The translations under genes and the position numbers were made by a program. The notes under the pieces were generated by a model, which saw nothing but the letters and a program-made list of their open reading frames with translations, had not been told where the DNA came from and made no database searches. A DNA stretch of 64,000 nt from Monodelphis domestica (Eukaryota; Chordata; Mammalia; Didelphimorphia; Didelphidae). Every line of letters begins with the position of its first letter. The stretch's first letter is position 1. The DNA is taken from contig NC_077235.1 in assembly GCF_027887165.1 (NCBI RefSeq), forward strand, positions 47,974,395 through 48,038,394. Reading direction: 5' to 3'. Below, in pieces: positions 24,516 to 60,824 of this stretch.

Positions 24516-26786
24516 GTGAGTCGGGTAGGGGGCGGGACAAACTTGTGGAGAGCCGGAGAGATAGGCGGCTTGGCCGGCCGGGGGTGGGAAGAGGCGGGCT
24601 GGGGCGGGGCGCTCAAGTACCCTAGCTGACAGATAAACTATGGACGGACCCGAGGACGATTATTTGGGCTATCTGAAGCCCGGGGGACTGTAGAGGGGAG
24701 CTTGAGCCATTGCGAAGCCAAGCGAGAAAAGGCAACGAGGCCTAGGGCTACCCATATAGGGTACCCAGCGCCCAAGGGCTGAGAGAAGAACCGACAGCCT
24801 CGAGGGAGAGAGACGGAGGACTGTCGAAGAGAACCTAATAGGAAATAACTTGAATTTCATTGAGACTTGGGGGTCCATAAGTCTTGAAACTCACTACAAA
24901 GTTTTTAGCCCTTGAAGTGTCATGTTCTTGGGGGTGGAGGGTGGGGAAGGGAGAGCCGGGAGGTTACGGGACCTAGTTAGCAACTCAATTGGACGTAGAC
25001 AAGGGAAGGAGAAAGTGGCTGACTAAATCTCCAAACGTTTTCAAAGCTTTACTGAATGTTAATACAGAGCTGCAGAAAATTATTTAAAATTATTTAGCGT
25101 GGATGTGACCTCACTGTACTCCAAGGCAATGGCATTAGAGATCAGATTCTGGCAGGTTCACTCTACCGAGATGGAAAGATTTCCCGCCTGCCGAAAATCA
25201 GTAGATCTAAATCCAGAGAGGCTTGTTGCAAGGGTGGTGAAGTTTGGAGCCCACATCTCTCAGACCCTCTAAATTATAAAAGGATTGCCACTGCGTTCGC
25301 TAGAGGGCGCACCGATACCGACAAAATTCCATATCCTAAAAATACTAGTTAAGATTTCTAAAAACTTTCTCGTGTTGGACTCTTAAGATTTCTTATTTGA
25401 TTTAATTTTGAACGTAATAAGTCCCTAATTTTCCAAGTAAACAGTAATCTTGAAAGGAATTATTCTCTTTACAGTCTAATATTTTTATCTAGATCTTCAA
25501 ATCTGGTTTTGGTATTTTAAGAAGTAGTCAATTGATAAACAAGTTATATACTCTTATCAGCACTTCTTGCCATGGGCTCTGGTATTAATACTCACATTTG
25601 ATTTTTTTAAAATATGGTAAATTTAAAATATAGTACTATAAAACTTGGATTCTGTGCTCTGCAATGAAATGTTATTGGTTTCTGCAATAGAGTCCTAAAG
25701 GTGATCAAAATGGTAGCTTTTAAAAGTCAAATTTAGGGGCAGCTGGGTAGCTCAATGGATTGAGAACCAGGCTTAGAGATGGAGGCTAGGTTCAAATTTG
25801 GCCTCAGACACTTCCCAGATGTGTGACCCTGTCACTTAACCCCCACTGCCTAGCCCTGATACAATATTGATTCTAAGACAGAAGATGCGTTTTTTTAAAA
25901 ATCAGACCATTTCTGGAGGCAGAAAAAAACAAGCTGGTAGGTGTACCAACTTAGGCACTCTTAATTAGTATTTTTTTTCCAAGAATTATTAGAATAATGC
26001 TTGAGTTTTCACATAAATTCTCTTTAATATGAAGACACATGGGTTCAAATCTCATCTCTGATGATTTCCACCTAGTGACCCTAGCAAGCCATTTCTACCT
26101 GGACCAAAGTTTCCTCATCTGTAAAATTATAAGACTCTAGACTAGACAGGCTCTAAAGCCCCTTTAAGTTCTAGTCTCTGATCCTATGAGGCTGAAATTA
26201 TGACTGTTAAAACCTAACAGTGTATGTGGGAAAACCTGTTCCATCTACTGCATGCCTTGCTCAAATGTGACAGAATGGAAAAATCAGTTTTTTTTCCTTT
26301 CCTTCTCCCTTATCTCAAGGATACTAATCTTCATTTCCCCAAATCTTTTAATTTTACATAGTGTGAAAGTTGATATTCACTCTGTGTGCTGATTATAGTC
26401 TATTATGTTATATAATAAATAAAATGTTTGTTCTTGTCCCCAAAATTAGTTCAAAGTCCCAACGTAAGCATTGTGTTTTAGTGAAGAAACTTTGTGAGAT
26501 TTTACCTACACCAGAGTACTTTTTTAATGTTGGCCTTAGCATATATCACTAACATCTACTTTCTTGCCCTAATCATGAAATGTCCAGTTTTTGCCGTATT
26601 GATTTGCCACATTTTGACTCTAAATAAATCCTATTTTTTCTAATATGAAATATTTAATGAAGAGCTCAACTGTATACAGATAAGATACTTTATAGTAGAG
26701 GAAACATAAGAAACATTTGAGCAAGAGACTGATCTGTCTAGATGAAAATTTCTGCCCACCATAGCAGAGGTTGAAGTCAAGAGTTA

Positions 26787-26824
<38 letters not shown>

Positions 26825-29800
26825 ACCAACTAGTAGAATAAACAAAATGATTTTCTTTTGTTTCTATTTCAGAGTTGTCTTCTAACATCCAAGAAAATTA
26901 TTTCTAGATATCTGGCTCATAGTTATCCTGCCCAAAACTTGTCTCCCTTTTTATGAAGAGATAAATTAAGTTATGACCATAAAGATATAATAGATGAATA
27001 AAATGTAAAGATCATCTTAGAACATAAATGCTTTTAAGGAGTCTAGAAGTAACAATATTCTGGCATGTGAATTTACCAATCTTTTTTTTTTTACCAATTA
27101 GAATATTTTAAGAGAACAATGCTGGTTTCAGGTTGAGTCAGTTTTTCATATGCTTCTGATTTTTCTAGATCGTACTTACATGCGTTTAACTGAAAAGAAA
27201 GGTGAAGCTCTGCCAAGAGATGTAAGTGTATATTCTGTTAAAAAAGATTATGAAATTTCAGTTTCTTAGCTTCTCATTTGATATTAATTTTTCTTCTATT
27301 AAATTCTTGCTGTCTTAAACAAGAAATTATATATTTATTCCTTACTCAAGTTAAGTGCAACCTGAGGAATAGGAAATCTCACAAAAGCCCTTCTGTTTGG
27401 TCTCTCCCTCTAGAGCTGCCCAGGAAATAACCAAGTTGGGCAATTGTTGCCATTCAGTCCCCAAAACAAAGAAGGGCATGCCTAATTTTGGTTTTTATTG
27501 TCTACAATCAGATAAATAATGCATTGCCATTAATGGCTTCAACATCCTATCACTCTTTCCTATACAGTACTTAATTGGTAGGATTTCTTGGCTGTTAAGG
27601 AAGAAAAAGATATTCAGCAATGTGGCTGTGATTGATTTCTATTGCCTGTTTTTGTTATATAATCTTACTTCTTCAAAATTAGAAATATCTATGCTGCTGA
27701 TTCATTAAGGATATTTTTGGTAAAGCACATTCCTATGTTTAAACTTCCAGGTACATATACAATGAATACCAAACTGGGTCCTGTAGGCCAGGAGGCCTGA
27801 AGCAGATTTTAGAACTAAAGTTCTTATCTAAAAAATTAGCACTTGATGAATGTTCTCAGGAACTAAAGTTTTAGTGATTCTAACTAGGTTATAAATCTTT
27901 TTCAAAATCTATTCCAGTGATGATTGTATCATAATCTAAATTGACATAAAAATTTTGACTGTACCTCAATATCGATATAGTGGAATGCCATGGTGGCAGA
28001 AAGGAGATCAAGATGAAAATGTACATTTTTATACTTAGATTTTAAATAATTTCTATGACAGGTAAGGAATATTGTGGTTAGAACAGGACACCGGGAGTCA
28101 AGAGATTGGAATTTTAGTTCCAAATCTGGTGTTAAGGAACTATATAAGACTCTGAATGAGTCCCTGAGTCTCCACTTTTTTATTTCTTATCTAGACTAGA
28201 TAATTTTAAATGCCCTTCCAGCTCTAAAAGTCAAGGAATACAATCTCTGTCTTTGAACTTATAGATAATTCTTCAAACCCTGTTGGCCTTTGTAATTACC
28301 CTTTATGGCATAGTACAATCTGTTGGAGATTTCAGAGAGCTGGATGCCACTTTGGAATTGGAGAATCGGTATGTCTTTTCCTTTCATCACTGAGTTTGAT
28401 TATGGGAAGTAGGGTTGGGATAAAACTGATAATATGATATTAAAGCACATAGGTACTCAATATAGATTTAGTGTGTGAATGTTTCCCAAAGGCCAAAGGT
28501 AAGCAGTCTTCTTGTTAGGACAGAGCTTGTCAAACAATACCTAGGTGGATTTGTCAATTATTTGATAGTAAAATGTCCATGCTTAAGTGCAAACTTGGGG
28601 ATTAGGGTTCTTTTTTTACCCTCCTCTTAACCTTCTCTCCCTTCCCCAGTTGGCAACCCTCCTTCCTCTGGTTGGCTTTTAAAACCTTCCATAAGGGGGC
28701 AGCTGAGTGGTTCAATGGATTGAAAGCCAGGCCTAGAGATGGGAGGTCCTAGGTTCAAATTTGGCCTCAGACACTTCCCAGCTATGTGACCCTGGGCAAG
28801 TCACTTGACCCCGATTGCCTAACCCTTACTGTTCTTCTTCCTTGGAAGCAATATATAGTATTGATTCTAAGACAGAAGGTAAGGGTTTAAAAATTTAATT
28901 TAATTTAAAAAATAAATAAAACCTTCCATAACCTGGAAACTTCCTACCTTTCCAAGTTTCTTGTACTTTACTCCCCACTCTATACTTCAGTATCCAATTA
29001 ACACTAGATTAACAACATCCTTATTATTTCTAGCACAACACATTCCTGTCTTCTGACTCTGGGCATTTTCATTGACTTTCCCCTAGCCTCTTGGCTTCCC
29101 TGCCTTCAAGTCTTATCTAAAATCTGACTTTGTGTTCTGTGAGCCTGGGTAAGTCACTTAACCTAGCCCTTATCCCTCTTCTGCCTCGGAACACAATACA
29201 CAGTATTGATTCAAAGACAAAAGGTAAGGGTTTTTAAAACAAAACAAAATAAAATCTGATGTTGTGCAAGAAGCCTTTCTCAGTCTTTAATCATGGATCC
29301 TTTCCTCAGTTGATTTATATCCATTTTATCCTTTATGTATTTTGTTTGCACAAGGTTGTTTGCGTATTTTCTCCCTCATTCCATTGTGAGCTGCTTGAGA
29401 ACAGGGACTCCTTTTTTCAGTCTGTCCAGCATTTAGAATAGTAGCTGGCACATCATAGGTGATTAAGAAATACTCCTTGTCTTGCCTGGATGGGATCAAT
29501 ATTGAAGAACTTTAAATGCCATAGAACTTTATATTTGATCCTGAAAGCTCCAGAGCTACCAGAGCTTATGCTTTTGAAAAATTACCTTGGTAACTGAGTG
29601 GAGGATGGACTAGAGTATGGAAAGACTTGAGGTTTACAATCAGAAGATGGGCCTTCTAGCCTTAGCCATTCTCCCTCTCTGCCACGCATTTTCTACCTCT
29701 GTAAAACAAGGGATGGGATGAAATGATCTCTAAGGTCTCTTCCATCTTTAAGAGAATCCCTTCTGTGGCTTAACCCTTAACAGGCTGAACAGATTTTGTT

Positions 29801-30220
29801 TTGCTACTTTTGAAGATGCTAGAAGGAAAGAATAGAATAAAAAAGGGAGAGGGGATTCCATTGGGTTGTGGAACACTTCTTATAGTTAAGGGAAAACTAT
29901 ATAGATAACAGCATTCTAATTTCATGAATGAAAGAGAAACATTTGGGAGCATATAGAAGCTTTTTACAGTGGGGAAAAAACCCTTAAAAAACCCTTCTAC
30001 ACATTCACCAAAAATGTTCATCACTTTCTTTCAACCATTTTTTAAAAGGACAATGGACAGTTTAAGAAACCATCCATCTTTTTGCATCTTTAACCACCGT
30101 GGTCGAGTACTGTTCCGGACATCTAAGACCATCGTCGTCAGTTCTCCTTCAAGCTCTGCAGCACCGACTCCACCTAAGCATGCACCAAAGCCTAAAAAGG
30201 GGAAATCTCATTCCCGTTAA
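24437..30220 (+). CDS. MMGT1: MMGT1/EMC5, ER membrane protein complex subunit 5 (four coding exons)
   Basis: Joining 24437-24515, 27169-27221, 28265-28368 and 30049-30220 gives 408 nt, or 135 residues; the human protein is 131. MMGT1 is EMC5, a small two-helix subunit of the ER membrane complex that inserts tail-anchored and multipass proteins; it was first described as a Mg2+ transporter. The N-terminal hydrophobic helix ([14 protein letters not shown]...), the cytosolic loop [11 protein letters not shown], the second helix ([16 protein letters not shown]) and the block [17 protein letters not shown] match the family. All introns have GT-AG ends, and phases close exactly: a His codon is split across exons 1/2 and an Arg codon across 3/4. 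The last roughly 24 residues, Ser/Pro then Lys-rich, differ from the human tail as I recall it. The gene faces the - strand repeat gene tail to tail. Confidence 0.95.
25735..25900 (+). repeat. marsupial tRNA-derived SINE
   Basis: GGGGCAGCTGGGTAGCTCAA head; shortened in the 3' half. Confidence 0.9.
26035..26205 (+). repeat. MIR-like SINE
   Basis: TGGGTTCAAATCTCATCTC and GTTTCCTCATCTGTAAAATT; diverged. Confidence 0.6.
26790..26822. repeat. (TG)n microsatellite
   Basis: About 16 TG units in MMGT1 intron 1. Confidence 0.95.
27169..27221 (+). CDS. MMGT1: MMGT1 coding exon 2
   Basis: A 53-nt exon with acceptor TTTTTCTAG and donor GTAAGT. It completes His27 and encodes [17 protein letters not shown], the conserved loop between the two helices. 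It ends in phase 0. Confidence 0.93.
27222..28264 (+). other. MMGT1 intron 2
   Basis: AT-rich and without recognisable genes. A weak MIR-like stretch around 28070-28230 (TGAGTCCCTGAGTCTCC...) is the only repeat-like signal. Confidence 0.7.
28265..28368 (+). CDS. MMGT1: MMGT1 coding exon 3
   Basis: A 104-nt exon following ...ATAG, with donor GTATGT at 28369. It encodes the second transmembrane helix and the start of the acidic post-helix segment ([14 protein letters not shown]). It ends in phase 2. Confidence 0.93.
28696..28895 (+). repeat. marsupial tRNA-derived SINE
   Basis: GGGGGCAGCTGAGTGGTTCA head, GACAGAAGGTAAGGGTTTAA tail; in MMGT1 intron 3. Confidence 0.9.
28915..29470 (+). mobile_element. 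L2 LINE 3' end with an internal SINE
   Basis: AAACCTTCCATAACCTGGAA, then after the SINE GCAAGAAGCCTTTCTCAGTC, TGAGCTGCTTGAGAACAGGG and TAGCTGGCACATCATAGGTG. Confidence 0.8.
29135..29245 (+). repeat. 5'-truncated marsupial SINE
   Basis: Only the 3' half is present. Near-identical flanks AAAATCTGACTTTGTG and AAAATCTGATGTTGTG look like the target-site duplication. Confidence 0.85.
30049..30220 (+). CDS. MMGT1: MMGT1 terminal coding exon
   Basis: Acceptor TTTTTTAAAAG, then codons for [11 protein letters not shown] and NHRGRVLF, the family signature. A Ser/Pro/Lys-rich tail ends in GKSHSR and TAA. A poly(A) signal follows about 60 bases downstream. Confidence 0.93.
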
Positions 30221-32399: not shown

Positions 32400-35300
32400 T
32401 CATCTTTTGGAAAAGCGGGGGCGGCTTGGTAGAGATGTTCCTGGGTGAGATTGTTCCTGAGGCACGGTGTCCAAGTCTGGCAGGTCAGGAGCAGAGCCAG
32501 GAAAAGGATGAAGGTTGGCTGGCCTGGGCCCCTCCCCAAAACAGATGCCCCAAGGATTCACCAATTGGAGGTGGGCACTAAGATGGTGGAGTGATGTTCC
32601 AGGGCGCAACTGAGACTCCGGCTGAGGCACGGTGTTCAAGGCCAAAAAATCAGAAGCAGAGACAGCAGGGCAATGAAGGTTGGCTGGTCTGGGAGTCTCC
32701 CCAGAATGGAGACCCTGGGAAGGATTCATCAATGGAAGATGAGGGTAAAGATGGTAGAGGGAATTTCCTGGGTGAGAATGCAGGTGATACATGGTAGCCA
32801 AATCTAGAAAGTTAGATGCAGAGCCAGGAAGAGAATGAAGATGGGCTGGCTCGGTCTCCTCCTCAAAATGTGGGCCTGGAGAGGACCTCTCCAATGGGAG
32901 ATGAGGGCCAAGAGGGTGGAGGGATGTTCCAGGTGGAGACTGTACTTCAGGCATGATGTTTAATTCCAGAGAGTCAGGAGCAGAACGAAGGTTGGTAGGC
33001 CTGGGCTCCTTACCTAAATGGAGGCTCAGAGAAGACTTCACAGGTGGGAGATGAGGGCTATCAGGGTGGAGGGATGTTCCAGGGTGCAGTTGAGTCTGAA
33101 GTTGAGGCCGACTGTCCATGTCCCGAAAGGCAGAACCAGAGCCAGAGGGGGAACGAAGGTCAGTTGGTCTGGATCTTTCCCCAAGATGGAGGCCCTGTGA
33201 GGAACTCACCAGTGGGAGATGAGGGCCAGGGTGGAAGAGGGATGTTCCAAAGTGGGACTGCAGCCAAGGCATGATGTCCATGTCCAGAAATTGTGAAGCA
33301 GGGCCAGGAAGAGGATGAAGGTTGGCCTGCCTGGGCTCCTCCCCATAATGGAGACTCCCAGAAGAATTCATCAGTGAGAGATGGGGGCCAGCATGGTGGA
33401 GGGATGTTCCAGGGTACAGTTGAGATTGCAGTTGAGGCAGAGTGTCCAAATATAGATATTCAGAAGCAGAAACAGGAGGACGGTGAAGGTTGGCTGACCT
33501 GGGGGTCTCCTTGTCAGGGCGGCTCTGGGAGGCACTCACTACTGGGAGATGGGGGCCAGGATGGGTCTTCGGGTGAGGAACGGTGTATAATCTTGCTGAG
33601 TCAGAAGCAGTATCAGAAGAGGAATTAGGGTTGAGTGGCCTGGGCTCATCCCTAGCATGGAAGCCTTGAGAGGAACTCACCAATGGGACATAAGAGGCAG
33701 GGTGGCAGAAGGATGTTCCAGGATGAGAATGCTCTTGAGGCAAGGTGTCCAAGGTCAGAAGTTCTGAAGCATGGCCAGGAGAGGAATGAAAGTTGACCCG
33801 CCTTGGCTCCTCTCCCAAATGGAAGCCCTGAGAGGGCTTCATGGAAGGGAGACTGGGGCTAGTATGGTGAAGGGATGTTCCAGGGTGCTGTGGAGATTGC
33901 AGCTGAAGCAAAGTGTCAAAATCCAGAAATTCAGAAGCAGAGACAGCAGGGCAATGAGGGTTGGTTGGTCTGGGGGGCTCTCCAATACAGAAATCCTGAG
34001 AGTTACTAACCACTGGGAGATGGGGACCAGCATAGTGGAGGGAAGTTGTGGGGAAAGACTGAAGCTGAGGCATGATGTCTAAGTCCAGAAATGGAGAAGC
34101 AGAGCCAGCAAATGAATGAAAGTCAGTCGGCCTGTGTCCATTCCCCAAATAGAGTACTCCAGAGGAACTTGCCAATGGGAGATGGGCTCCAGGATGGTGG
34201 AAGGCTATTCCGGCCGGGGTCTGTAGCTGAGGCATGATGTTCAAGTTGAGGAAGTCAGAAGCAGGGCCAACTGGGCAATGAGGGTTAGCTAGTCTTGGTC
34301 CCTCCCCAAAATGGAGGTCCTGGGAGGGACTTGGGAATGGGAAACCTGAGCTAGCATGGTAGAGGGATGTTCCAGTGTGAGATGGCAGCTGAGGCATGGT
34401 ACATAAGTCTGGAAATTGAGATGCAGAGTTAGGAAAGGAATGAAGGGTGGCTGACCCAGGCCCTTCCTGAAAATACAGGTTCTTGCTGGAACTAGGCATT
34501 GGGAGAAAAGGACTCCAATTGGGGAAGGAGGTTCTGGGGTGAGGCGGCAGCTGAGCTATGGTGTTCAAGCCCAGAAAATCAGAAGCAGAGACAGGAGGAG
34601 AATGGTGGCTGGCCAGACCATGTCCATCCCTTAAATAAAAAGCCCTAGAAGAACTAAGCAATGGGAGAAGTGAACTGGCATGGTGGAAGGGTATTCCAGG
34701 GTGGGACTGCAGCTGTGGCATGGAGTCCAGATCCAGAAAGTCAGAATCAGAGAGAGGAGGAGAATGATGGCTGGCTGGCCTGGGGGCCTCCCCAAAATGG
34801 AGTCCCTGGGAGGAACTCAGCAATGGGAGAAAGGGACCAGCATCATAGAGGGACGTTCCAGGGTGAGGCGGCATTTGAGCGAAGGTGTCCAAGTTTGGAA
34901 AGTCAGAAGCAGAGCCAGGAGAGGAATGAAGGTTGACTGGCCTGGTCTTCTCCTCTAAAGGGAGATTTTGCGAGGAACTTACCAGAGGAAGAAGGGAGCT
35001 GGCATGATGGAGGGTTGTTCCAGGGTGGGACTGCTGTGATGTGGCGTCCAAATCCAGAAAGTCAGAAACAGAGTCAGGAGGTGAATAGTTCTTCAGGTGG
35101 GGCCCCTCCCCCAAGTGACAGCCTTGGAAGGAATTTACTAAGGAGGCAAGGGAGCTGGCATGTTGGAGGGGTGTTTCCTGGTAGGACTGCTGCTGAGGCC
35201 TGGTATTCAAGTCCGAAAAGTCAGAAGCAGAGGCAGGAGGGATATCGTTATCCAGTCTGGGCTGCTCCTCCAAATGACAGCCTTGGAAGGAATTCACTAA

Positions 35301-35789
35301 TGAGATAAGGGAGTTGGCATGGTGGAGGGATGTTTCAGGGTGAGACTTCTGCTGAGGCCTAATATTCAAGTCCAGAATGTCAGAAACAGAGGCAGGAGGG
35401 GAAGGAGGAGTGTTTGGCCTGGTCCCCTCCCCAAAATGGAGTCCCTGAGAGGAACTCACCCATGGCAGACAGGGGTCAGCCTGGTAGACAGATGTTCCAG
35501 TCTGAGAAGTCCACCGGTTTTTCTTAGATGAAGAGGCTGCAGGTGCCAAGGGAACTTCTGGGTTGAGACTGCCACTGTTACTCCGTGGTTCAAGGCCAGA
35601 AGGCCAGAAGTGAAGCCTGGAGGGAAATGAAGTCTGGCCAGCCTCATTTCCATTCTCATCTGGAGGCCTCAGGAGGAATTCACCAGTAGAAGAAGGTTTC
35701 TGGCATGATGGAGGGGCGTTCTGGGGCAAGAAGGTCCCAGGTGCTGGTTGAAGTTCCTGATTGGACCCGTTGCTCAAGTATGGTAGCAT
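32400..35789 (-). CDS. large tandem-repeat protein of unknown family (about 20 units of 52-56 aa)
   Basis: Reading from ATG at 35789 gives 1129 residues with no interruption. After a unique N-terminus of about 135 residues, roughly 20 diverged units follow. Each approximates FLDLDTMPQLQSHPGTSLHH, then PHLPLVSSSQGLHFGEGPRP, then NLHSPPGSASD. Units differ widely in sequence yet stay in frame, which argues for a translated, selected protein. It is Pro/Ser/His/Leu-rich and low in Lys, with no membrane helix, signal peptide or catalytic motif. The start ATG has A at -3 and lies 3 bases after a strong 3' splice site, so an upstream 5' exon is likely; an in-frame start upstream of the acceptor would not be spliced in. 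The gene is convergent with MMGT1. Its C-terminus comes from a frameshift inside a unit. In position and orientation it resembles human SAGE1, also a repeat protein, but the sequence similarity is not convincing. Function unknown. Confidence 0.7.
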   Translation of the reverse strand: MLPYLSNGSNQELQPAPGTFLPQNAPPSCQKPSSTGEFLLRPPDENGNEAGQTSFPSRLHFWPSGLEPRSNSGSLNPEVPLAPAASSSKKNRWTSQTGTSVYQADPCLPWVSSSQGLHFGEGTRPNTPPSPPASVSDILDLNIRPQQKSHPETSLHHANSLISLVNSFQGCHLEEQPRLDNDIPPASASDFSDLNTRPQQQSYQETPLQHASSLASLVNSFQGCHLGEGPHLKNYSPPDSVSDFLDLDATSQQSHPGTTLHHASSLLPLVSSSQNLPLEEKTRPVNLHSSPGSASDFPNLDTFAQMPPHPGTSLYDAGPFLPLLSSSQGLHFGEAPRPASHHSPPLSDSDFLDLDSMPQLQSHPGIPFHHASSLLPLLSSSRAFYLRDGHGLASHHSPPVSASDFLGLNTIAQLPPHPRTSFPNWSPFLPMPSSSKNLYFQEGPGSATLHSFPNSASQFPDLCTMPQLPSHTGTSLYHASSGFPFPSPSQDLHFGEGPRLANPHCPVGPASDFLNLNIMPQLQTPAGIAFHHPGAHLPLASSSGVLYLGNGHRPTDFHSFAGSASPFLDLDIMPQLQSFPTTSLHYAGPHLPVVSNSQDFCIGEPPRPTNPHCPAVSASEFLDFDTLLQLQSPQHPGTSLHHTSPSLPSMKPSQGFHLGEEPRRVNFHSSPGHASELLTLDTLPQEHSHPGTSFCHPASYVPLVSSSQGFHARDEPRPLNPNSSSDTASDSARLYTVPHPKTHPGPHLPVVSASQSRPDKETPRSANLHRPPVSASEYLYLDTLPQLQSQLYPGTSLHHAGPHLSLMNSSGSLHYGEEPRQANLHPLPGPASQFLDMDIMPWLQSHFGTSLFHPGPHLPLVSSSQGLHLGERSRPTDLRSPSGSGSAFRDMDSRPQLQTQLHPGTSLHPDSPHLPPVKSSLSLHLGKEPRPTNLRSAPDSLELNIMPEVQSPPGTSLHPLGPHLPLERSSPGPHFEEETEPAHLHSLPGSASNFLDLATMYHLHSHPGNSLYHLYPHLPLMNPSQGLHSGETPRPANLHCPAVSASDFLALNTVPQPESQLRPGTSLHHLSAHLQLVNPWGICFGEGPRPANLHPFPGSAPDLPDLDTVPQEQSHPGTSLPSRPRFSKR

Positions 35790-35792
35790 TGT

Positions 35793-35842
35793 CTGGAAAG
35801 TCAGAAGCAGAACCAAGAGGGAATTAGTAGGGAGAAAAGTCC
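35793..35842 (-). promoter_or_regulatory. 3' splice site of the repeat-protein exon
   Basis: On the - strand, a pyrimidine-rich tract ends in CTTTCCAG directly before ACAATG. A good branch-point match, TACTAAT, lies about 30 bases upstream (35823-35829). This suggests the long coding exon is spliced to a non-coding 5' exon at higher coordinates. I could not identify that exon. Confidence 0.55.
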
Positions 35843-35854
35843 ATTTGTTTGGGA

Positions 35855-36020
35855 GACAGGAGAGCCGAACTGGAATTTAATTTCTGGTACTATCTGTGTG
35901 ACCTTGGGCAAGCTTATTTACCTTGATGAGCTCCGCTCCGGTCCTGTCCTTGGCTGTGAAATGAGACAGATCAACTAACTAATGGCCTCTAAGGTCTCTG
36001 CTCTCTCGATATTTGTGATC
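35855..36020 (+). repeat. MIR SINE
   Basis: GAACTGGAATTTAATTTCTG, CTGTGTGACCTTGGGCAAGC, GGCCTCTAAGGTCTCTGC. Confidence 0.75.
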
Positions 36021-37609: not shown

Positions 37610-40160
37610 AACCATTCAATCCCAACTTTCTCCTAAGACCCTCGGTGGCCCCTTGCAATTCCAACTCTACCACTTGTTTCAATTGAGCCTGTTCCTGTAT
37701 AGGTATCCCACTACCCCATCACCTGTTCCAGTCCTTCCAGCATAGGCAAACTCCTAGGTTTGGTAATGGACCCAAGCGCATTCCTCAATGATTAACAAAC
37801 TCCCATGCCATCAAACCTTCCTCAAAATCTTCCACAACTCCCCAACCACCAATACTCCACACTAAAGCTGCCTAATATGTTCTAATATTCTAATGTTCTA
37901 AAGCTGTTCTAATATGTTCTCTGGAACACCTGCACTATAGGTAACATACTTTACTATTACTATAGGTGAGAGATACTTCCCATTGCTATGGATAATTGCC
38001 ATTAGCTTAAACTCCTTCACATTTCTTCCACCTTCTTGCTGAGATATGGCCCCTCCTGATGACACAGCCTCCCTGGCCACCCTCTGCTCTCACTCTTTCC
38101 TTCCTACCCCCAACTCACTCATCCTTGCTCTCCATTGCCACTTCCAGGCTCTCCCTCTACCACCACCACTCAGCTACCTCTTGCCCACCGAGATTCATTC
38201 AATACATATTTACCATCCAATAAAGATTTTGGTGGTTGTTGCCTACCGACCTCTCGGCTGCTCTCCTCCTTTCTTCAACAAGTCCGGTGCCTGGCTCCCA
38301 GCCTCTCCTCTCCCAGCTTCTGCCCTCATCTGAGGGGACGTCAATATATATAAACTCCCAGGTCATGAGCTTATCACATCCCATGATCCTCCTCCACTCC
38401 TCCTCAATCACACACAGGAATGGCCACATCCTTGACCTTGCCACCCCCCGCAAATGTACCTCCGCTCCTTCCGTGTCCATGAACTCTGAAATTCCCTTAT
38501 CTGGTCACGCTCTGGACATTCCATCTCTTCCTCTGTATTTGCAACCTCAAATCCTCCCAAGGACCTCCACTGTTCTTCCCCTGCAGTGGTTACACTCTTT
38601 CCTCTCTTCTCCATCTTGCCCCCTTGCTGAACCAGTTTAATTCCACGCTGTCCTCTTGACTCCCTTGTCCCCTTTTCTTGGAGAAGATCTTTCCCTGTCA
38701 AGCCTCAACCTTGGATACTCCCACCATCTGCTGCCTTTATTTCTACTCACATGCTACTGAACCAAGCTGGAGAAATTGTGAGACCTGGCTGACTGGATCC
38801 ACTACGAATTTATATTTCATCATCTCAACTGGAAGCCAAGTGGTGCAGTGGATCAAACACTGGGAATCAAGAAAATTCCCCTTCCTAGTTCAAATCTGGC
38901 CTCAGACACTTACTAGCTGTTGACCCTGGGCAAGTCACTTACTGCCTCAGGTCCTCATCTGTAAAATAATCTGAGAAAGGAAATAGAAAACCACATCTTT
39001 GCCAAGAAAACCCCAAATGAGGTCCTAAAGAGTTGGACTCAATTGAAAATGCCTAGAAAGCAACGGTAAACTCACTATCCTGCTGACCACAGTGGATCTT
39101 CCAAACCTCCCAGGAGTCCCCCTCCCTTCTCAGCTGAGAACCTTGGCTCATGTTTCAGTGGATAATGGAAGCTATTTGCCAAGAGCTTTCTGCCAGTGTC
39201 TCCTCTTTTACTTCTATCTCATATGAAGAGGTACACTTTTATTTGCCAAAGCAAACATTTGTACATGCACAGTGATCAATTCCATCCTGTCTTCTCCAGC
39301 AGGCTAGCCTATCTAACATCCTCACTCTCACCTTGTCTACTGACTGCTTCCCCATTGCATAGGAACATGCTCATGTCTCCCCCATCCTCAGAAACTTTCT
39401 TTGTTCTGTCCATCCCTGCTCTCCATCATGCTACATCTCTCCTCCCTCTTGTGGCTGACCACCTTGAGAAGGCCCTCTACAACCTCTCTGCCTCTGCTTC
39501 CTCTCCTCCTGGCTCTCTGCAGCCCAGCTTCTGACCTCATCCAACTGAAACTAGTCCTTCCAAAGTCCCCAATCATCTCTGGATTTCCCAAGAAATGGTG
39601 GCCTTTTCTCAACCCTCATCCTTCTCGACCTCTCTGCAGTCTCCGACACCATCAGACTCCCTCTTCTCCTTCCTTGATGCTCTCTTTTCTCTAGGGTTTT
39701 GTGACATTGCTCCCTCCTTCCTTCTTACCTATCTGAATCCTCCTTCTCAGTCTCCTTTGCTGGATCTTCATCCAGGTCATGGCTGTTGACCATGAGTGCT
39801 GCCCAGCCCTCTTTCTCTTCTTCTATACTATTTCACCTGGGGGCCTCATCAGCTCCCATCAATTCAACTATTATCTGTGCGCTTCTGTGTTCATGAACTC
39901 TGAAATTCTTTTATCTGGTCATAGTCTTGTCATTCCACCTCTCCCTCTACTTTTGCAACCTCAAACCCTCCCAATGACCTCCACTCCCTCTGCTCTCCTG
40001 TTCTTTCCCTGGCCATCACCCCTGCCGTGGTTACACTCTCTTCTCTCTTCCACTTCTTGACCCCTTGGTGAATGATGATGATGATTCTCAGACTGACATG
40101 TCTACTCTTGGTCTCTCTTCCAATTTACAGTCTTGCACCTTCAACTGTCTATTGGACATC
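37610..40160 (+). mobile_element. L2 LINE copy 1 (endonuclease and RT remnants)
   Basis: Broken frames contain L2-type endonuclease islands (KILVVVAYRPL; GDVNIYI; NGHILDLATPRKC) and downstream RT-like sequence (PSQSPLLDLHPGH; TTTCACCTGGGGGCCTCATC). 38022-38832 is a near-perfect copy of 46717-47527. A second-type SINE sits inside it. Confidence 0.8.
38836..39075 (+). repeat. second-type tRNA-derived SINE
   Basis: GCCAAGTGGTGCAGTGGATC, TGTTGACCCTGGGCAAGTCA, CAAGAAAACCCCAAATGAGG. Confidence 0.85.
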
Positions 40161-46299: not shown

Positions 46300-47577
46300 C
46301 CCTTTTAGAGAAAAAGTTGTATAGTATTGCTTTTCAATTCATTTCTTCTTAAGATTAATAGAATGCAAGCAGATTCCATCCTGCTCCAGGCCCCTCTCCA
46401 GCCTTCTTTGACTCTACAGCATTGCCTTGTACCCATACCCCATCATCTCAGTTTTTCAGCTACACCCATATGGGCCTGAAGTACTCTCTGGAACAACTCA
46501 GCCAACTTGAACTCCTTCCCTAGTGAGTAACAACATTCTTCTGTCATTCTCCCCCCATCCCAGTGATTCTGTACCTCCTGCTGCCTTTGTTCAAAACTCT
46601 CATGTCCCAGTGATAGAAAACTTCCCATTTCAAAGCTTCCCACCCCTTCCACTTTCTTTGTACTCTTTGCAATGCCCATTCCATGATTTCATCTGAAATC
46701 TCTGTTTCTTCCACCTTTTCTTCCACCTTCTTGCTGAGATATGGCCCCTCCTGATGACACAGCCTCCCTGGCCACCCTCTGCTCTCACTCTTTCCTTCCT
46801 ACCCCCAACTCGCTCATCCTTGCTCTCCATTGCCACTTCCAGGCTCTCCCTCTACCACCACCACTCAGCTACCTCTTGCCCACCGAGATTCATTCAATAC
46901 ATATTTACCATCCAATAAAGATTTTGGTGGTTGTTGCCTACCGACCTCTCGGCTGCTCTCCTCCTTTCTTCAACAAGTCCGGTGCCTGGCTCCCAGCCTC
47001 TCCTCTCCCAGCTTCTGCCCTCATCTGAGGGGACGTCAATATATATAAACTCCCAGGTCATGAGCTTATCACATCCCATGATCCTCCTCCACTCCTCCTC
47101 AATCACACACAGGAATGGCCACATCCTTGACCTTGCCACCCCCCGCAAATGTACCTCCGCTCCTTCCGTGTCCATGAACTCTGAAATTCCCTTATCTGGT
47201 CACGCTCTGGACATTCCATCTCTTCCTCTGTATTTGCAACCTCAAATCCTCCCAAGGACCTCCACTGTTCTTCCCCTGCAGTGGTTACACTCTTTCCTCT
47301 CTTCTCCATCTTGCCCCCTTGCTGAACCAGTTTAATTCCACGCTGTCCTCTTGACTCCCTTGTCCCCTTTTCTTGGAGAAGATCTTTCCCTGTCAAGCCT
47401 CAACCTTGGATACTCCCACCATCTGCTGCCTTTATTTCTACTCACATGCTACTGAACCAAGCTGGAGAAATTGTGAGACCTGGCTGACTGGATCCACTAC
47501 GAATTTATATTTCATCATCTCAACTGGGCCCCCTCTGTAGTAAAGCAATCCTTTAACACCTCCCTAATAGATGCACT
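46300..47577 (+). mobile_element. L2 LINE copy 2, upstream half
   Basis: 5' part differs from copy 1. 46717-47527 matches copy 1 with a single mismatch found (46812 G versus 38117 A). It continues as L2 (GTAGTAAAGCAATCCTTTAA) to a SINE. Confidence 0.8.
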
Positions 47578-47815
47578 GGGCTGCTGAGTGGCACAGTGGA
47601 TAGTGCTGGGCCTGGAATCAGGAAGATTCCTCTTCCTGAGTTCAAATCTAACATCAGACACTTAAAATCCATGTAAACCTGGGCAAATCACTCCCCCCTC
47701 TTTGACTCAGTTTCCTCATCTGTAAAATGAACTGGATGAGAAAATGGCAAACCACTCCATTATCTTTGCTAAGAAAACCCCAAATAGGTCAAGAAGAGTC
47801 AGAAAGGACCCAGTA
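47577..47815 (+). repeat. second-type tRNA-derived SINE
   Basis: GCTGCTGAGTGGCACAGTGG, GTTTCCTCATCTGTAAAATG, AAACCACTCCATTATCTTTG. Confidence 0.88.
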
Positions 47816-50174: not shown

Positions 50175-51165
50175 TATAGAGGGATTGGTGTAGATGACCT
50201 TTGTGAACACTGCCAGCTTAAAATCAATGATTCCACCATCCTCTGATTCCACATCCATTGTGCCACACTGCCTCGGCACTTACTTGCCAGTCTAATATGA
50301 GGTCTCTCTTCCATTCTGCTATGCTTCCTAGCACTGCTTTCATTCTTCCCTTGATACACTTGACCTGCTGTTCTTCCAGGTGGGTTTTTAAAATTTTCTC
50401 AATCTGGTTCCACACAGTCACCCACTGATATTGAGTTAAAGGTGTAGGTTAATCCAAGTGGAATCATCATTTCCCCTATATTCTCATGCACCAGTCCTGA
50501 AACCTCACTATTTATTCCCATAAAAATTGACCACCTATTTATCTCACATCCTATGAACATGCTCATGTTTCCCCCATCCTCAGAAACTTTGTTTGTTCTG
50601 GCCAACCCTGCTCTCCATCATGCTACATCTCTCCTTCCTCTTGTGGCTGACCACCTTGAGAAGACCCTCTACAACCTCTCTGCCTCTGCTTCCTCTCCTC
50701 CCGGCTCTCTGCAGCCCAGCTTCTGACCTCATCCAACTGAAACTGGTCCTTCCAAAGTCCCCAATCATCTCTGGATTTCCCAAGAAATGGTGGCCTTTTC
50801 TCAACCCTCATCCTTCTCGACCTCTCTGCAGTGTCCGACACCATCAGACTCCCTCTTCTCCTTCCTTGATGCTCTCTTTTCTCTAGGGTTTTGTGACATT
50901 GCTCCCTCCTTCCTTCTTACCTATCTGAATCCTCCTTCTCAGTCTCCTTTGCTGGATCTTCATCCAGGTCATGGCTGTTGACCATGAGTGCTGCCCAGCC
51001 CTCTTTCTATTCTACATTATTTCATCTGGGGACCTCATCAGCTCCTATTAATTCAATTATTATCTGTATGCAGTCCATTCTCAGACTGACATATCTATCT
51101 ACTCTTGGTTTCTCTTCCAACTTACAGTCTTGTACCTTTACCTGCCTATTGGACTGCCCTACAAA
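50175..51165 (+). mobile_element. L2 LINE copy 2, downstream half
   Basis: 50555 to about 51005 matches copy 1 (39363 to about 39815) at roughly 98%, with eight or nine differences seen. The RT-like tract is WWPFLNPHPSRPLCSV and SPLLDLHPGH. Confidence 0.8.
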
Positions 51166-54640: not shown

Positions 54641-55136
54641 CTTGATTTTTTTTCCTTTGAAAAATGAATGATTGTATTTTCAACCCATTTTAAATATACT
54701 TCAAATGTGTTCAGGTAATAATGAGAGGGACTCTCTCCCCCCCTTATCTCAATGTAATTTTTTTCTTAATTTTTTTCGGGTTGAGAAAATAATTTCTATA
54801 AATCAAAAAAAAAAAAAAAAACCACCACTCCTAAATATAGTCATTTTTCCAAGAATCATTGCTCTGCCCCTTTTTTTTTTCCTCTTTTTGCCGCAGTTCT
54901 GTACTACGCAGCTGTAAGGTTTGCTGCAGTCTCTCTCTCTGGTCCCTAGGGACAGCATCTCCAAAATAAACAGGATTGGTCTCTAGAGCTGGCTGCATCC
55001 GTCCAGGACTCTAGCAGGTTACTCTTTAAGGCTAGAGAAACCTTAGGATGCTAATATCTCTAGAGGAGTCTTAATCGGCCAGAAATTTCTCTTTTAAATA
55101 GGTAGGCACCTGTACATCGTCTAATTGGGATCATCT
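54640..55136 (+). other. upstream region of the TRF1-like gene
   Basis: AT-rich with A and T runs to about 54890, then mixed sequence with a TATA-like TTTTAAATA near 55092-55100. This could be a promoter or the end of a 5' intron. No coding sequence seen. Confidence 0.4.
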
Positions 55137-55154
55137 GTTTTCTTCCGTTGCCAG
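55137..55154 (+). promoter_or_regulatory. possible 3' splice acceptor just upstream of the TRF1-like start
   Basis: A pyrimidine-rich stretch ending in TTGCCAG, 18 bases before the ATG. If used, the mRNA has a non-coding 5' exon elsewhere. If not, the 5' UTR runs through from about 54.9 kb. Confidence 0.4.
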
Positions 55155-55172
55155 GTTCTCGGTGATCGGAGG

Positions 55173-58100
55173 ATGTGGAGCGGGAAGAAGGAGGATGAGC
55201 CGGAGAAGGCCGACCAGGCCCCAGCCCAGGAGGAGGTCCAGGAGAAGCCGACCCCAGAATCAGCCGTGACTGGGGTCGAGCAGAAGTCGACCCCCACCCC
55301 AGCCCGGCACGGGATCCCGCAGAGGACCGGATCGTACCAAAACCCAATCCGACCCGGACTCCTGGGAAAGCTGGGCTCGGCCTCCGCCCCAGCCAGAGAG
55401 GTGATGCGGCAGAAAGCAACCCCGGGCCCCGCCCCAACCCAGGAGGGGGACCCGGAGAAAGAAACCTCGGGCCCTGCCTCGGCCCCGGCCCCAGCCCCGG
55501 CCCCAGCCCCAGCCCCGGCCCCAGCCCCAGCTCCGATCCCGGCTCCGGCCCCGGCCGCAGCCCCAGCCCAGGGGGGGGTCCGGCAGAAAGCAACCCCGGG
55601 CCCCGCCCCAGCCCCTGAGGTGATGCGGCAGAAGGCAACCGCGGGCCCCGCCCCAACCCAGGAGGGGGCCCGGCAGAAAGCAACACCGAGTCGGGCCCCC
55701 GCCCCAGCACCGGCCCCGGCCCCGGCCCCCGCCCCGGCCCCGGCCCCCGCCCCGGCCCCGCCCCCCGGCCCGGCCCTGGCTCCGGCTTCGGCCCCGGTCA
55801 CGGCCCCCGCCCCGGCCCCGGCCCCGGCCCAGGTCCCGGCCCAGGTCCCGGTCCAGGACCCGGTCCCGGCTCCGGCCCCGCCCCCCGCTCCAGCCCCGGC
55901 CCCGGCCCCGGTCCGGGCCCCGGCCCCGCCCCCAGCTCCGGCCCCGGCTCCGGTCCGGGCCCCGCCCCCGGCTTCGGCCCGGGCCCCGGCCCCGCCCCCG
56001 GCCCCGGCCCCGACCCGGGCCCCGGCCCCGGCTCCGGCTCTAGCCCCTGCTCCGGCCCCTGCTCCGGCCTCGGCTCCGGCCCCGGCCCGGGCTCCGGCCC
56101 CTGCTCCGGCCTCGGCTCCGGCCCCGGCCCCTGCTCCGGCCCCGGCCCCGGCCCCGGCCCCTGTCCGGGCCCCGGCCCCTGCTCCGGCTCCGGGTCCGGC
56201 TCCGGCCCCCGCTCCGGCTCCGGGTCCGGCTCCGGCTCCTGTCCGGGCCCCGGTCCCGGCCCCAGCTCCGGCTCCGGCTCCTGCTCCGGCTCCTGTCCGG
56301 GCCCCGGTCCAGGCCCCAGCTCCAGCTCCGGCTCCGGCTCCGGCTCCGGCTCCAGTTCCGGCTCAGGTCCCCGCTCCGGCCGCCGCTCCGGCCCCGCCTC
56401 TGATCCCAGCTCCGGCCCGGGCCCCGGCCCCTGCTCCGGCTGCCGCTTCGGCCCCGGTTCCGGCTCCGGCCCGGGCTCCGGCCCCCGCTCCAGTTGCCGC
56501 TCCGGCCCCGGCTCCGGATCGGGCTCCGGCCCCCCCTCTAGCCGCAGCTCCGGTCCCGGCTCCGGCTCGGGCCCCGGCCCCCGCTCCGGTTCCCGTTTCA
56601 GGTCCGGCTCGGGCCCCGGCTCCGGCCTCCGCTACCGCCCCTGCTCCGGTCCCAGCCCGGGTCCCTGGTCCGGCCCCAACTCCGGTCCGGCCCAGAGGCC
56701 CTGTCATCGCTCCGGGCGTGTTCCGGGCCCCGACCTCGGCTCCGTCCCTATTCCGAGTTCCGGCTCCGGCTCCGGCCCGAGCTCCAGCTCCGTCCCTGTT
56801 CCGAGCTCCGGCCCCGGCTCCGTCCCTGTTCCGAGCCCCGACCTCGGGTCCGTCCTTGTTCAGGGTCCCGGCTCCGGGCCGGGCTCCTGCCTCTGCTTCG
56901 GGCCGTACCTCGGCCTCGTCTTCAGGCCGGAGCCGGACCGCTCCCGGCCTGTTCCGAGCCCCGGCCCCCGCTCCGGCCCTGTTCCGAGTCCCGGCTCCGG
57001 CTCCTGCCCGGACCTCGGGTCATGCCCGAGCCACAGCTGTCCCGGGCTCCGCCCACGTCTCGGGCCGAGAGGTGATCCCTCAAAGACCCATTCCAGTCAG
57101 GGTGAAGACCGAACCTCTCTCGCCTCCTCCTCGGGAGGTGGCCCAGAACAAGGCCGCCCCGGGCCCAGCCCCGGGCCCAGCCCCGGCCCCGATTCCTGCC
57201 CCGGGCCCAGCCCCAGCCCCAGGCCCGGCCCCGGCCCCGGCCCCAGGCCCGGCCCCGGCCCCGGGCCCGGCCCCGGGCCCGGCCCGAGAGTCGGTTCGGC
57301 ACAGGCACCGGTACCGGTCCTCTGGGTCGGAGTCGATCTCGGGCCCGAACCCAGTCCGAGTGGTGCTTCGGCGGAAGCCAGGCTCGTCCCCAAGCCATGG
57401 GGTGATCTGCTGGCAGAGGAGCGGCCCATCCTGGGTCCTGGAGGTGGTCAGAGAAAGATCCTCTGGGCCTGCCCCCTATCAGACCCAGGATGTGGGGGTC
57501 CGGAGGAGGGCCTCCGGAAAGGCAACGGCGAAAACAGCCGCCCGAGTCCCGGAGGTGGTGGTGAAGAGAGAAAGGGACGAGGACTCAGAGCCTGGGGAGC
57601 CCAGGGAACCCAGGGAACCAAGGGAGCCCAGGGAACCCGCGCCCCCGGGGGAGCCCGCGCCCCCAGGGGAGCCCGCGCAGCCTGGGGAGAGGTCCGAGAC
57701 GGGGCAGACGGGAGACTCGGGGGAGAGAGGAGAGGTGCCCGGCGCCGCGGCCGCGGCGGCCGCGGGGGCAGCAGCACCAGGGGCCGCAGGGGCGGCAGCA
57801 GCGGCTGCAGGGGCGGCCCCGGAGGCAGCAGGGGCTGCCCCCGCGGTGGCGGCGGCGGCAGCAGCGGCAGCCCCTGCGGCGGAGGTGGCAGGGCCATCGA
57901 CAGCCCCTGCGGGGGCGGCAGCGGCGGCGGGGCAGGCCAAGACAGGCAATGTAGTAGAAGTGGTGGACGAAGATGATGATGTACAGGTGGTGGAGACTAG
58001 GGATGATGAAGTGCAGGTAGTGGAGGTGGTGGAGGTGAAGGATGATGATGATGATGTGCAGATAGTGGAGGTGGTGAACGAGAGCAAGGTGGAGATAGTG

Positions 58101-59378
58101 GATTTGCTGGATGATGAGGATGAGGATGATGATGACTCTGAGGCAGCTGGGCCTTCGTCCAGAGACGATGATGAAGAGGAGATGTGGTTTCAGCTCATTC
58201 GGATTGAGGAGTTCGATGGGCCCTCGAGGCCCTCCACCCCCCTGCAGCCTTCCTATGAGGACTTGGAGGACTGGACCCACACTCGGGTCAGGTCTGTAGT
58301 GGCCGGCTGGGTGATGGATTATTTGTGCATGAACGTGTGCCATGCCTTCTGTCATGACATGGCTGAGGAGTTCAGCCAGGGCATCGTTGCTATGGAGGCT
58401 GCAGTCTGTGGGGTCCACAACCGACCCCTCCTGCAGCTCAAAACTGTGCACATCTGTCAGTTTTTAAAGAGAATCACTAGGGCAAGATGCCTGGATGTTC
58501 GATTTGATGGGAATACTGTCAATACCCCTCTGGAATCAGCCATGGTTATGTGGAACCGGATGGGCTACTGTAAAGATCCCCGGTTTGACGACATCCATGA
58601 TTTGCTGAGAATTCAGGCTGTGGCTATCTGCCTGGAGAAAAGAGGCTTTCGGGAGGCTGAGGTGATCTTCCGTAGGGTATTTGGCGCCAATGACACCAAC
58701 AGGCCTCTCAAAAAGATCCTGTTTCGGGTGGTCAGCAAGAAAGATCCAAACCATACCTTTTTCCACTACTTCAGCTTTGACAGCCTGATCAAGAAAGTGA
58801 AGGCTTTCGTGCGTCATGTGATCAGTGAGAAAGCAACCAGCTTTCTGATCAGGAAGGCCATGAAGATCGTGAAGCATAACCCTGAGGAAAGTCCATCCAG
58901 GAAGAGAGAAAGAGAAGTCCGAAGCCACATCATCATCCAAGAGTTCGGAGGGTACCCTAAGTTCATAGTCAGGTCTGACACCAACGTCTTCTGCTTCTCC
59001 CAAATGAAACGCCGGAAGTCCAAGCAGAAAGTTTTGGATGACTCCGGAAGAGAAATGGGCCCCGAGAGAAAAAAGGCCAAACAGAAGTGCAAAAACATTG
59101 TCATCGACACCCAAACCAATGATGTGGAGATCATCGAGGACACCTACGAGGATGACAATGAAGCGAGCACCTCGGAGAGACCTCCTGGCAAGAAGAGGAG
59201 AACATGGACCTGGGAAGAAGACATGAAGCTGAGGTCTGGGGTGAGGAAATATGGAGAGGGCCAATGGAAGAAAATCCTCGCTCGTTATGGATTCCACGAC
59301 CGAACAAACGTGATGCTGAAGGACAGATGGAGAACCATAAAGAAAGCAGAAGTCCTTTCTTCAGACAGTGAAGACTGA
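55173..59378 (+). CDS. single-exon TRF1-like telomere-binding protein with giant Pro/Ala-rich N-terminus
   Basis: 1401 residues from ATG (A at -3) to TGA; human TERF1 is about 439. Order: charged N-terminus (1-100); Pro-Ala low-complexity block (about 100-510); SLFRAP/LFRVPAP repeats (about 515-620); basic linker (640-800); REP and PPGEP repeats (about 810-850); poly-Ala (855-925); acidic valine-rich SUMO-interaction-like string (926-990); TRFH dimerisation domain (about 1031-1236; [32 protein letters not shown]); linker; telobox Myb (about 1340-1393; [32 protein letters not shown]); C-terminus SSDSED, as in TERF1. Both the Myb and the SSDSED end favour TRF1 over TRF2. TRF1 binds duplex TTAGGG as a dimer within shelterin. 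Human TERF1 has many introns and this region has none, so I infer a retrogene. No tankyrase-binding motif was evident in the N-terminus. The upstream in-frame TTG is not taken as start. Confidence 0.92.
55484..56700 (+). repeat. GGCCCC/GGCTCC-type coding minisatellite (Pro-Ala repeats)
   Basis: Long runs of hexamers such as CCGGCC, CCAGCC and TCCGGC translate to alternating Pro-Ala, with occasional Arg-Ala or Val-Pro variants. It is the most GC-rich DNA in the window and sits inside the TRF1-like frame. The opposite strand is G-rich with many GGGG-type runs and would read as alternating Gly-Ala. Confidence 0.9.
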
Positions 59379-59673: not shown

Positions 59674-60818
59674 AAGCCTCAGAGAAGAAAAGAAAAACAT
59701 TGTTCTACTGAGTTTAGGTGAAATGGCCTGAAAAAACAAGTCTTTTAAGCAAACCAAATTTGGATGTTCTGAGTCACTGCAGAATAACATCCCCTGAAAC
59801 TAGCAGATAATGGCTTGGTTTTATGCCTTTAGGATGTCACTTCATTTTTTAAAAAGGCCTTCTGATAAAATCCCAAGTGGACAGTGTTGCTTCAGTATTA
59901 TATGTTTTCCAATGAGGAAGGATGAGTAAAGGATACATCTTAGACAAAAACAAGATTATTAGCTAGTGTGTGATACAGTCATGTTTGGCTTTTTTTGGTT
60001 TTCTGTTTTGTAACATTCCCCCCTTCCTAATGAAGATCCACCACCTTCTCTCTCTCTCCTCCCTCCCCCCAACTGAGAAAGCAAGAAAAACAAAATCTTT
60101 ATCACCCGATGTGGTCATTCCAAAGACTGGCTGCATTTGGCTGTGTCTGAAAAGATGGAGGTCTCAATCTGCCCTCTGAGTATGTCACCTTTTTCTCCTG
60201 AGAGAGAGCTGGGTAGCCCGTTTCATCATGAATCCTCTTAAATCGTGATTGGTTATTGTGATCAGAGTTCCTAAGTCTTTCAAAGTTCATTGTCTTACAA
60301 TATTGTTGTTCTTGTATAAATTGTTCTCCAGCTTTGTTCCGATAGACATTTAACTTAAATGTTAGCTAGACCTGTAGTACATGAAAGTGTACGCTGAATT
60401 CTATGATTTTGATGTTATTTAACATAATGCCAGCAAAGTGGTTGAATTGTACTGTGAACGCTTGAGACTTGATACCTCAATTAGCAACTTTACTATCACT
60501 CTGATTATTACTGCTTACTTAGCATAAGTCTTGGAACCATCAGTGTGCTTGTGTTGTTCACTTCTCCACGATTTTGTTCCTCACATGTCTTGGTCAAGGA
60601 ATATATAGAATGACTTATTAGTAGCTATGAATGTACCAAATTAGCTAGAATGTGTTTCTTCCTTAAATTAGCTAACTAGGAACAAATAACATCTACCAGT
60701 TTCATTTATGATAATTCTAGAGTTGCTTGGCCTCTGTTATATGTTGGAGTTTGTATATAGAATTGAAGAAGTGTGTCTGTGTCCTTTCCATAGCCTATTA
60801 AAAATTCAGTCGTTCAAA

Positions 60819-60824
60819 AATAAA
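60819..60824 (+). terminator. poly(A) signal of the TRF1-like gene
   Basis: AATAAA followed by a TGTTT-type stretch; the best candidate downstream of the TGA. Confidence 0.55.

Follow-up and report, generated by a model that had tools for sequence, protein, structure and literature searches.

A TRF1 retrogene with a rebuilt N-terminus in the opossum Monodelphis domestica

Is an intronless copy of a telomere-protein gene, lying with an open frame in an opossum genome, a retrocopy on its way to decay or a second TRF1 at work? The question is raised by a 64,000-nucleotide stretch of Monodelphis domestica DNA (assembly GCF_027887165.1, NC_077235.1, referred to below as the window), which maps to C9:47,974,395-48,038,394 of an assembly of 3.586 Gb in 13 contigs. 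At 55173-59378 of its plus strand the window carries a TRF1-like gene in a single open frame, from the ATG at 55173 to the stop codon ending at 59378 (1401 codons, 1401 aa). TRF1, the product of TERF1, generally counts as a core shelterin subunit that mammals have in single copy. What is new here is a second marsupial TRF1 with a rebuilt N-terminus, its descent and domains being those of the TRF1 already known; among the literature on TRF1/TERF1 or shelterin duplicates and marsupial TERF1, subscription papers being mostly outside the scope, none of the titles and abstracts listed describes the gene. We somewhat favour the reading that it is an old functional TERF1 retrogene whose product would be a SUMO-binding scaffold carried to telomeres, acting there beside TRF1.

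Descent, constraint and age of the gene

In Pfam the 1401-aa protein scored above the cut-offs of TRF (PF08558; 39.9 bits vs 25) and Myb (PF00249; 44.1 bits vs 24.4), and no domain besides the TRF and Myb-type ones was found. The TRFH domain encompasses residues 1036-1235 (58278..58877), as delimited by Pfam, the PDB relative, the alignment and the fold model; it is followed by a telobox Myb domain (residues 1342-1395, 59196..59357), which keeps the VMLKDRWRT stretch common to ordinary TRF1, and by the C-terminal SSDSED tail (59358..59375). Compared with PDB, the last 382 aa matched human TRF1 best (E-value 8.9e-76), the best TRF2 chain following at 5.3e-26, and over 199 columns of the TRFH domain there are 74 matches to TRF1 vs 46 to TRF2. 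An AlphaFold2 model (alignment of 49 homologues, taken from 121 proteins, plus the window protein; mean pLDDT, the predicted local distance difference test score, 68) shows the TRFH and Myb blocks mostly at 80-96, with some parts at 61-76, and the linker below 50; Foldseek matched its TRFH domain to TRFH structures of TRF1, with a best target template modelling score of 0.90 (5xup_A), and a single-sequence fold model (mean pLDDT 42) was discarded. As PDB E-values, TRFH alignment and fold all favour TRF1, an origin from TRF2 was rejected, and the domain content proposed by an earlier sequence-only reading of the locus, a TRF1-type TRFH, Myb and SSDSED tail in one frame, stands. The protein would be expected to dimerise through the TRFH domain.

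No intron interrupts the TRFH/Myb coding region: the TRFH domain aligns with that of human TRF1 without a gap across 200 residues (75/200 identical), in ordinary opossum TERF1, by contrast, ~22 kb separate two exons located at ~324.157-324.179 Mb of contig C3. A splice-acceptor-like site (polypyrimidine tract and CAG, pattern scan) at 55134..55154 ends 18 bases 5' of the ATG, and an intron in the 5' untranslated region ending at 55154 is possible, so that "intronless" applies to the coding region. The C3 exons are 94-98% like the M. domestica TRF1 protein, and with TERF1 present in the opossum the loss of ordinary TRF1 was ruled out as the reason for the gene. The genome search returned nine matches, several of them pieces of one copy, which comprise the window gene, the two TERF1 exons, two retrocopies (C1 698.646 Mb, L004/L005; C2 282.732 Mb, L007) and a Myb match at C1 709.29 Mb that reads like TRF2.

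Both retrocopies carry several stops and frame changes each. The C1 copy differs from TERF1 over the Myb exon by dN 0.099 and dS 0.130 (58/59 codons, one stop excluded), the C2 copy being undated, while the window copy has reached dS ~1.8 and ~0.9 on the two exons, near saturation, with zero stops and zero frameshifts. At such an age a poly(A) tract and target-site duplications would hardly be expected to survive. A copy clearly younger by dS is thus broken and an older one intact, which argues for selection on the latter. The sequence-only reading had proposed dN/dS over TRFH and Myb as a check; run as pN/pS (the ratio of nonsynonymous to synonymous differences per site) against two exons of ordinary opossum TERF1, 108 codons in all, it gave a low 0.28 for the Myb exon (bootstrap 0.16-0.48) and 0.39 for both exons (0.28-0.57), the TRFH exon alone being weighed further below. 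Of the sites that are the same in human TRF1 and TRF2, 32/56 are retained in the TRFH of the window protein and 26/31 in its Myb (Fisher p 0.017). When neutral change was simulated with the window sequence as starting point (weight 2 for transitions over transversions and 8 for CpG, both the author's choices; frameshifts uncounted), the TRFH region at 57% identity was free of stops in 16/2000 runs, and the other two forward frames of the TRFH-Myb part contain 20 and 22 stops.

A wombat protein (P0001, A0A4X2K1L7, 283 aa), compared at the protein level, is identical to the window protein at 226/286 aligned positions (79%), while opossum TRF1 is 38% identical to the latter. The conservation is patterned: 100/121 residues are identical in TRFH, 17/40 in the linker, 34/37 in a basic linker motif (residues 1276-1312, 58998..59108), 51/54 in Myb and 5/6 in the SSDSED tail, and a further short segment is kept at 14/15. 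The basic motif differs significantly from the linker (Fisher p 3.4e-6) and is private to the opossum-wombat pair, since only 9/37 of its residues match opossum TRF1. Across 13 TRF1 proteins 112 columns do not vary; 75 of them are kept in the window protein, and 16 of its changes at these columns are common to the wombat protein, whose model lacks the first part. Among the matches listed (the best 120 of 255) the wombat protein is the only one of this type, besides a 172-aa piece identical to the window protein that comes from a 1219-base contig (P0004). A relative in another marsupial was thus found in the wombat, in a model that begins inside the TRFH domain. Two proteins annotated as "telomeric repeat-binding factor 1-like", from chimpanzee (P0031, 391 aa) and jerboa (P0090, 372 aa), could represent further open-frame copies of TERF1.

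A relative at 79% identity implies that the gene should predate the split of American and Australian marsupials. In a tree of 21 rows (20 of the 121 proteins plus the window protein, with no TRF2 row) the opossum copy and the wombat protein are paired (100/100); four marsupial TRF1s (99/98) form the sister group of this pair, with 96/93 for all six. Independent copies in opossum and wombat were rejected (p 5e-89). An origin preceding the therian split (p 0.144) was not, nor was a topology that places the pair with just the TRF1s of American opossums (p 0.179). The marsupial-specific origin proposed earlier accordingly agrees with the best tree, beside which an older origin, before marsupials and placentals parted, is a weaker possibility. 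The stem branch amounts to 2.06 changes per column and the opossum-wombat path to 0.28, vs ~0.17 (branch sum) for the path between Monodelphis and Petaurus TRF1; over the shared stretch, identity is 226/283 for the paralogue pair vs 240/286 for the two TRF1s. The best tree is a duplication on the marsupial stem with a long, fast stem branch and slower change thereafter, which we read as an initial burst and subsequent constraint, with a pace of change slightly higher than in ordinary TRF1.

With the frame intact where the retrocopies are broken, and with the wombat relative, a pseudogene was rejected. We regard it as very probable that this is a selected protein-coding gene, its coding status and selection being well supported, and the view of a retrogene that kept constraint on both domains and gained a new N-terminus was supported by the wombat identity, the constraint by segments, the Myb pN/pS and the decayed controls.

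The N-terminal extension and its candidate SUMO-related motifs

There are 1044 residues before TRFH helix 1, vs 31-99 in 118 other TRF1s (the 121 proteins without the wombat protein, the frog protein P0003 and the window piece P0004; isoforms included), so that the extension is longer than the roughly 900 residues first given for it. It opens with a charged part, with a degenerate repeat in the coding sequence (55379..55775) that contains 45-bp units (55549-55688), continues with a Pro/Ala tract (~residues 97-720, 55461..57332), an Arg/Glu/Pro part and an Ala/Gly-rich part of low complexity (~residues 858-924, 57744..57944), and ends in an acidic segment (residues 925-1003, 57945..58181). The description of the extension as Pro/Ala-rich therefore fits ~residues 97-720 and fails beyond them, where Arg/Glu/Pro, poly-Ala and acidic parts follow. 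Met 1004 (58182..58184), near the expected start of an ordinary marsupial TRF1 N-terminus, would be an alternative start if the extension were untranslated. The short acidic N-terminus of the TRF1 subfamily is missing, an acidic stretch being present in rebuilt form; descent and domains make the gene a TRF1, but one whose N-terminus has been rebuilt and is unlike the short one of TRF1.

The 5' end and the N-terminal coding region lie in a CpG island (55001..58200; observed/expected CpG 0.58-0.88 across bins 55201-58000 vs 0.25 for the whole window), which suggests little germline methylation. The openness of the GC-rich tract itself proves little, because stops are scarce in the other five frames too (1-7 across 1.9 kb) and long minus-strand frames occur as well. 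Its codons are more telling. In 132 Pro and 143 Ala slots, which alternate, the third positions depart from the commonest base in 33-41% of cases vs 7-15% at first and second positions, three to four times as often. Decay of CpG in the Pro slots, expected to yield equal numbers, has produced silent CCA 14 times and the Leu codon CTG once (P 0.001), and over the whole region CCA 27 times vs CTG 6 times (P 0.0003). The third-position excess and the excess of CCA over CTG favour translation in this frame, in which the tract's codons look selected.

The acidic segment contains six non-overlapping cores resembling SUMO-interacting motifs (SIMs), starting at residues 927, 937, 947, 952, 962 and 973 and identified with a fixed rule of the author's own. 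Six were reached in 1/20000 shuffles of the segment (shuffle mean 1.75), and under the same rule 0/118 other TRF1s have a core before TRFH and 113/118 have none anywhere. Upstream of the array a motif scan found two psi-K-x-E sites that resemble SUMO acceptors, VKTE(P) at residue 644 (57102..57113) and VKRE followed by acidic residues at residue 797 (57561..57572). We consider it possible, on these motifs, that the protein is a SUMO scaffold, although the balance of probability does not yet lie there. In human cells, passages of one study (PMC11368244) report, a SIM brought to TRF1 enriched SUMO, made TRF1 droplets fuse and clustered telomeres; as far as those passages go, the SIM on TRF1 did not start telomere DNA synthesis, but SUMO itself did.

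Probable telomere binding, possible setting and rival explanations

Kappei 2017 (PMC5309834, in part) describes that Q378M and Q393T weakened the binding of opossum TRF1 to TTAGGG and that Phe at 397 abolished it. The residues concerned are M378, K379, K393 and A397 in the window protein, M, K, K and S in wombat, and Q, K, Q and S in opossum TRF1; the DNA binding of the paralogue may thus be retuned. In the groove of the TRFH domain that docks FxLxP motifs (TIN2/TERB1; residues as named in sections of PMC12635197 and PMC11615109), E106, Q127, R131, C126, F142 and E192 are kept, with the changes L86V, R102I, T130K and E146T, position 146 being Ala already in marsupial TRF1s. We hold it likely, judging from the domains, that the product is a telomere-bound TRF1 paralogue.

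C9 measures 89.4 Mb and is the shortest among the four contigs compared; the opossum X is the smallest opossum chromosome, and human MMGT1, a relative of which appears to lie in the window, is located at Xq26. Size and neighbour together make it probable that the gene is on the opossum X; the X-linkage suggested before is thus likely, though short of proof. According to parts of PMC9834047, the opossum X is enriched in genes specific to spermatogonia, and therian X chromosomes are silenced in male meiosis, so that early germ cells, or carried-over protein, would be the likeliest setting. A germline role is a tentative suggestion.

We therefore picture, under the favoured scaffold reading, a protein that would dimerise via TRFH and sit on TTAGGG repeats via its Myb domain, with a long flexible Pro/Ala spacer that ends in the acidic SIM array and is accompanied by SUMO-acceptor sites. 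It would concentrate SUMO and SUMO-modified partners at telomeres, as a natural one-chain counterpart of SIM-TRF1 tethering, and would work alongside ordinary TRF1 in certain cell types, early germ cells being the likeliest given the probable X location.

A number of observations weigh against this proposal. Met 378, present in the window and wombat proteins, is the very exchange that weakened the opossum TRF1 Myb (PMC5309834, as excerpted), and the TRFH domain is diverged, with R102I, T130K and L86V altering the groove for TIN2/PinX1. The TRFH exon alone gives a pN/pS of 0.58 (0.36-1.04), not distinguishable from neutral, which leaves the TRFH half of the rate check without the low value of the Myb half, and the C1 retrocopy has a pN/pS of 0.77 with a bootstrap range (0.28-3.61) too wide for a contrast. 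The Ala-type codons show no asymmetry (GTG 5, GCA 6; GCG nearly absent, 1), and Pro/Ala units may have been copied together with their variants, in which case the codon counts are not independent. V-x-V-V-E units that resemble one another make up the SIM array, which may have arisen by plain expansion of a repeat; a SIM-like site in the linker, at 1318, lacks residue-for-residue conservation in wombat, which has VETT there, although the rule scores a wombat site a few residues away. The extension and the array are known from the opossum only, as the wombat model starts inside TRFH, and the protein search found no annotated relative of ~770-2450 aa. Silencing of the X in male meiosis, as described in PMC9834047 in part, also speaks against a role there.

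The groove changes invite another explanation, in which the paralogue acts by competition or partner exchange: its Myb would occupy TTAGGG, its TRFH groove would take other FxLxP-type partners or none, TRF1-TIN2 would be displaced, and the N-terminus would be a mere spacer. That R102I, T130K and L86V have changed while F142, E106, Q127 and R131 are kept, and that the 16 changes at TRF1-invariant columns recur in wombat, agrees with it, but it leaves the SIM-like array and the in-frame signal of the tract unexplained, and the loss of TIN2 docking is only putative; we deem it unlikely. Somewhat further down the scale we place a real gene translated from Met 1004, an ordinary-sized TRF1 paralogue whose upstream region is simply an open, GC-rich CpG island. 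The scarcity of stops in the other tract frames, the minus-strand frames, the position of Met 1004 near the ancestral start and the short wombat model are all as it would have them; the third-position excess and the asymmetry of CCA over CTG, however, occur in exactly this frame, as do the SIM-like array and the acceptor-like sites.

The private basic motif, conserved at 34/37, and a Met 378 that may weaken telomere binding would suit a role of the Myb domain and this motif in transcription or at interstitial TTAGGG sites instead of at telomeres, yet the Myb conservation of 51/54, the retained VMLKDRWRT and the TRF1-type dimer domain make this improbable. A recently dead copy or an assembly artefact, finally, can claim that no annotated full-length protein was found; against zero stops and frameshifts, a wombat relative at 79% with patterned constraint, and an assembly of only 13 contigs for 3.6 Gb it is barely credible and already largely refuted.

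A second TRF1 that is under selection and predates the separation of American and Australian marsupials would imply two possible ways of dressing marsupial telomeres, and the gene would let one ask in a natural setting whether SUMO-SIM scaffolding at telomeres occurs outside cancer cells. According to portions of PMC8853506, dunnart males lengthen their telomeres in meiosis and heterologous telomeres associate; telomere associations and a proposed component of alternative lengthening of telomeres (ALT) are described for the lengthening in male dasyurid meiosis (PMC8853506, PMC3458001, both in part). The gene would be a candidate for how dasyurid males lengthen meiotic telomeres. We speculate, with little confidence, that it could encode an X-linked germline shelterin subunit of marsupials which, through its own SIM array and SUMO sites, forms SUMO condensates at telomeres, gathers recombination factors and so allows telomere association and ALT-like lengthening in germ cells; were this so, gains and losses of the gene among marsupials could underlie the dasyurid dimorphism of telomere length by parental origin and the meiotic elongation.

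Surroundings of the gene and comparison with known systems

Downstream of the gene, the first candidate polyadenylation signals (ATTAAA / AATAAA, by pattern only) lie at 60797..60824. On the plus strand at 24437-30130, four collinear exons resemble human MMGT1/EMC5 (57-75% identity to the query); they start in a CpG island (23601-25000), contain a single stop, in the third match, which may mark the edge of an intron, and are rather diverged, perhaps representing a paralogue. The minus strand carries a second long open frame at 32400-35876 (1158 codons), built of ~54-residue repeats, in which the other five frames contain 29-69 stops and for which neither Pfam nor PDB gave a match. Compared at lag 54, its repeats show pS 0.445 > pN 0.288 in frame and about equal values in the other two frames; it may be another unannotated gene for a repeat-rich protein, the DNA repeats reaching, with stops, to ~31.9 kb. 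Two pairs of repeats were found within the window, 38022-39033 with 46717-47799 (89% identical) and 39360-39878 with 50552-51067 (96%). Scans of the window for Rfam families, tRNAs and bacterial promoters gave nothing useful; a CT45 query found no convincing match in the window, nor did SLC9A6. A match of 33 query residues (47% identical) on a viral contig (L001, 1570-1671) proved on reading to be a single short segment and was taken as chance.

Compared with known systems, the gene shares with TERF1/TRF1 of shelterin the TRFH and Myb domains and the SSDSED tail, and is of the TRF1 and not the TRF2 type by sequence and fold; it differs in lacking introns, in lying on a different chromosome, in an identity of 38% to opossum TRF1, and in having 1044 residues before TRFH, a SIM-like array and a private basic linker motif. 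Like the TERF1 retrocopies on C1 (698.6 Mb) and C2 (282.7 Mb) it lacks introns, but the stops and frame breaks of these decayed copies are absent from it. With RNF4 and SIMC1-type proteins it has in common clustered hydrophobic cores with acidic flanks, here joined to a telomere-binding module in a protein in which Pfam finds only TRF and Myb-type domains. A SIM has also been placed on TRF1 artificially by means of a dimeriser (Zhao et al. 2024, PMC11368244, in the parts describing it). That engineered system likewise puts SUMO-binding motifs on TRF1 at telomeres but is inducible, whereas the window protein is a single natural polypeptide with putative SUMO binding. As a lineage-specific duplicate of a shelterin subunit the gene resembles rodent POT1a/POT1b, as these are presented in parts of PMC5309834, although the subunit is a different one and the opossum copy arose by retroposition, probably to the X, and has acquired a new N-terminus.

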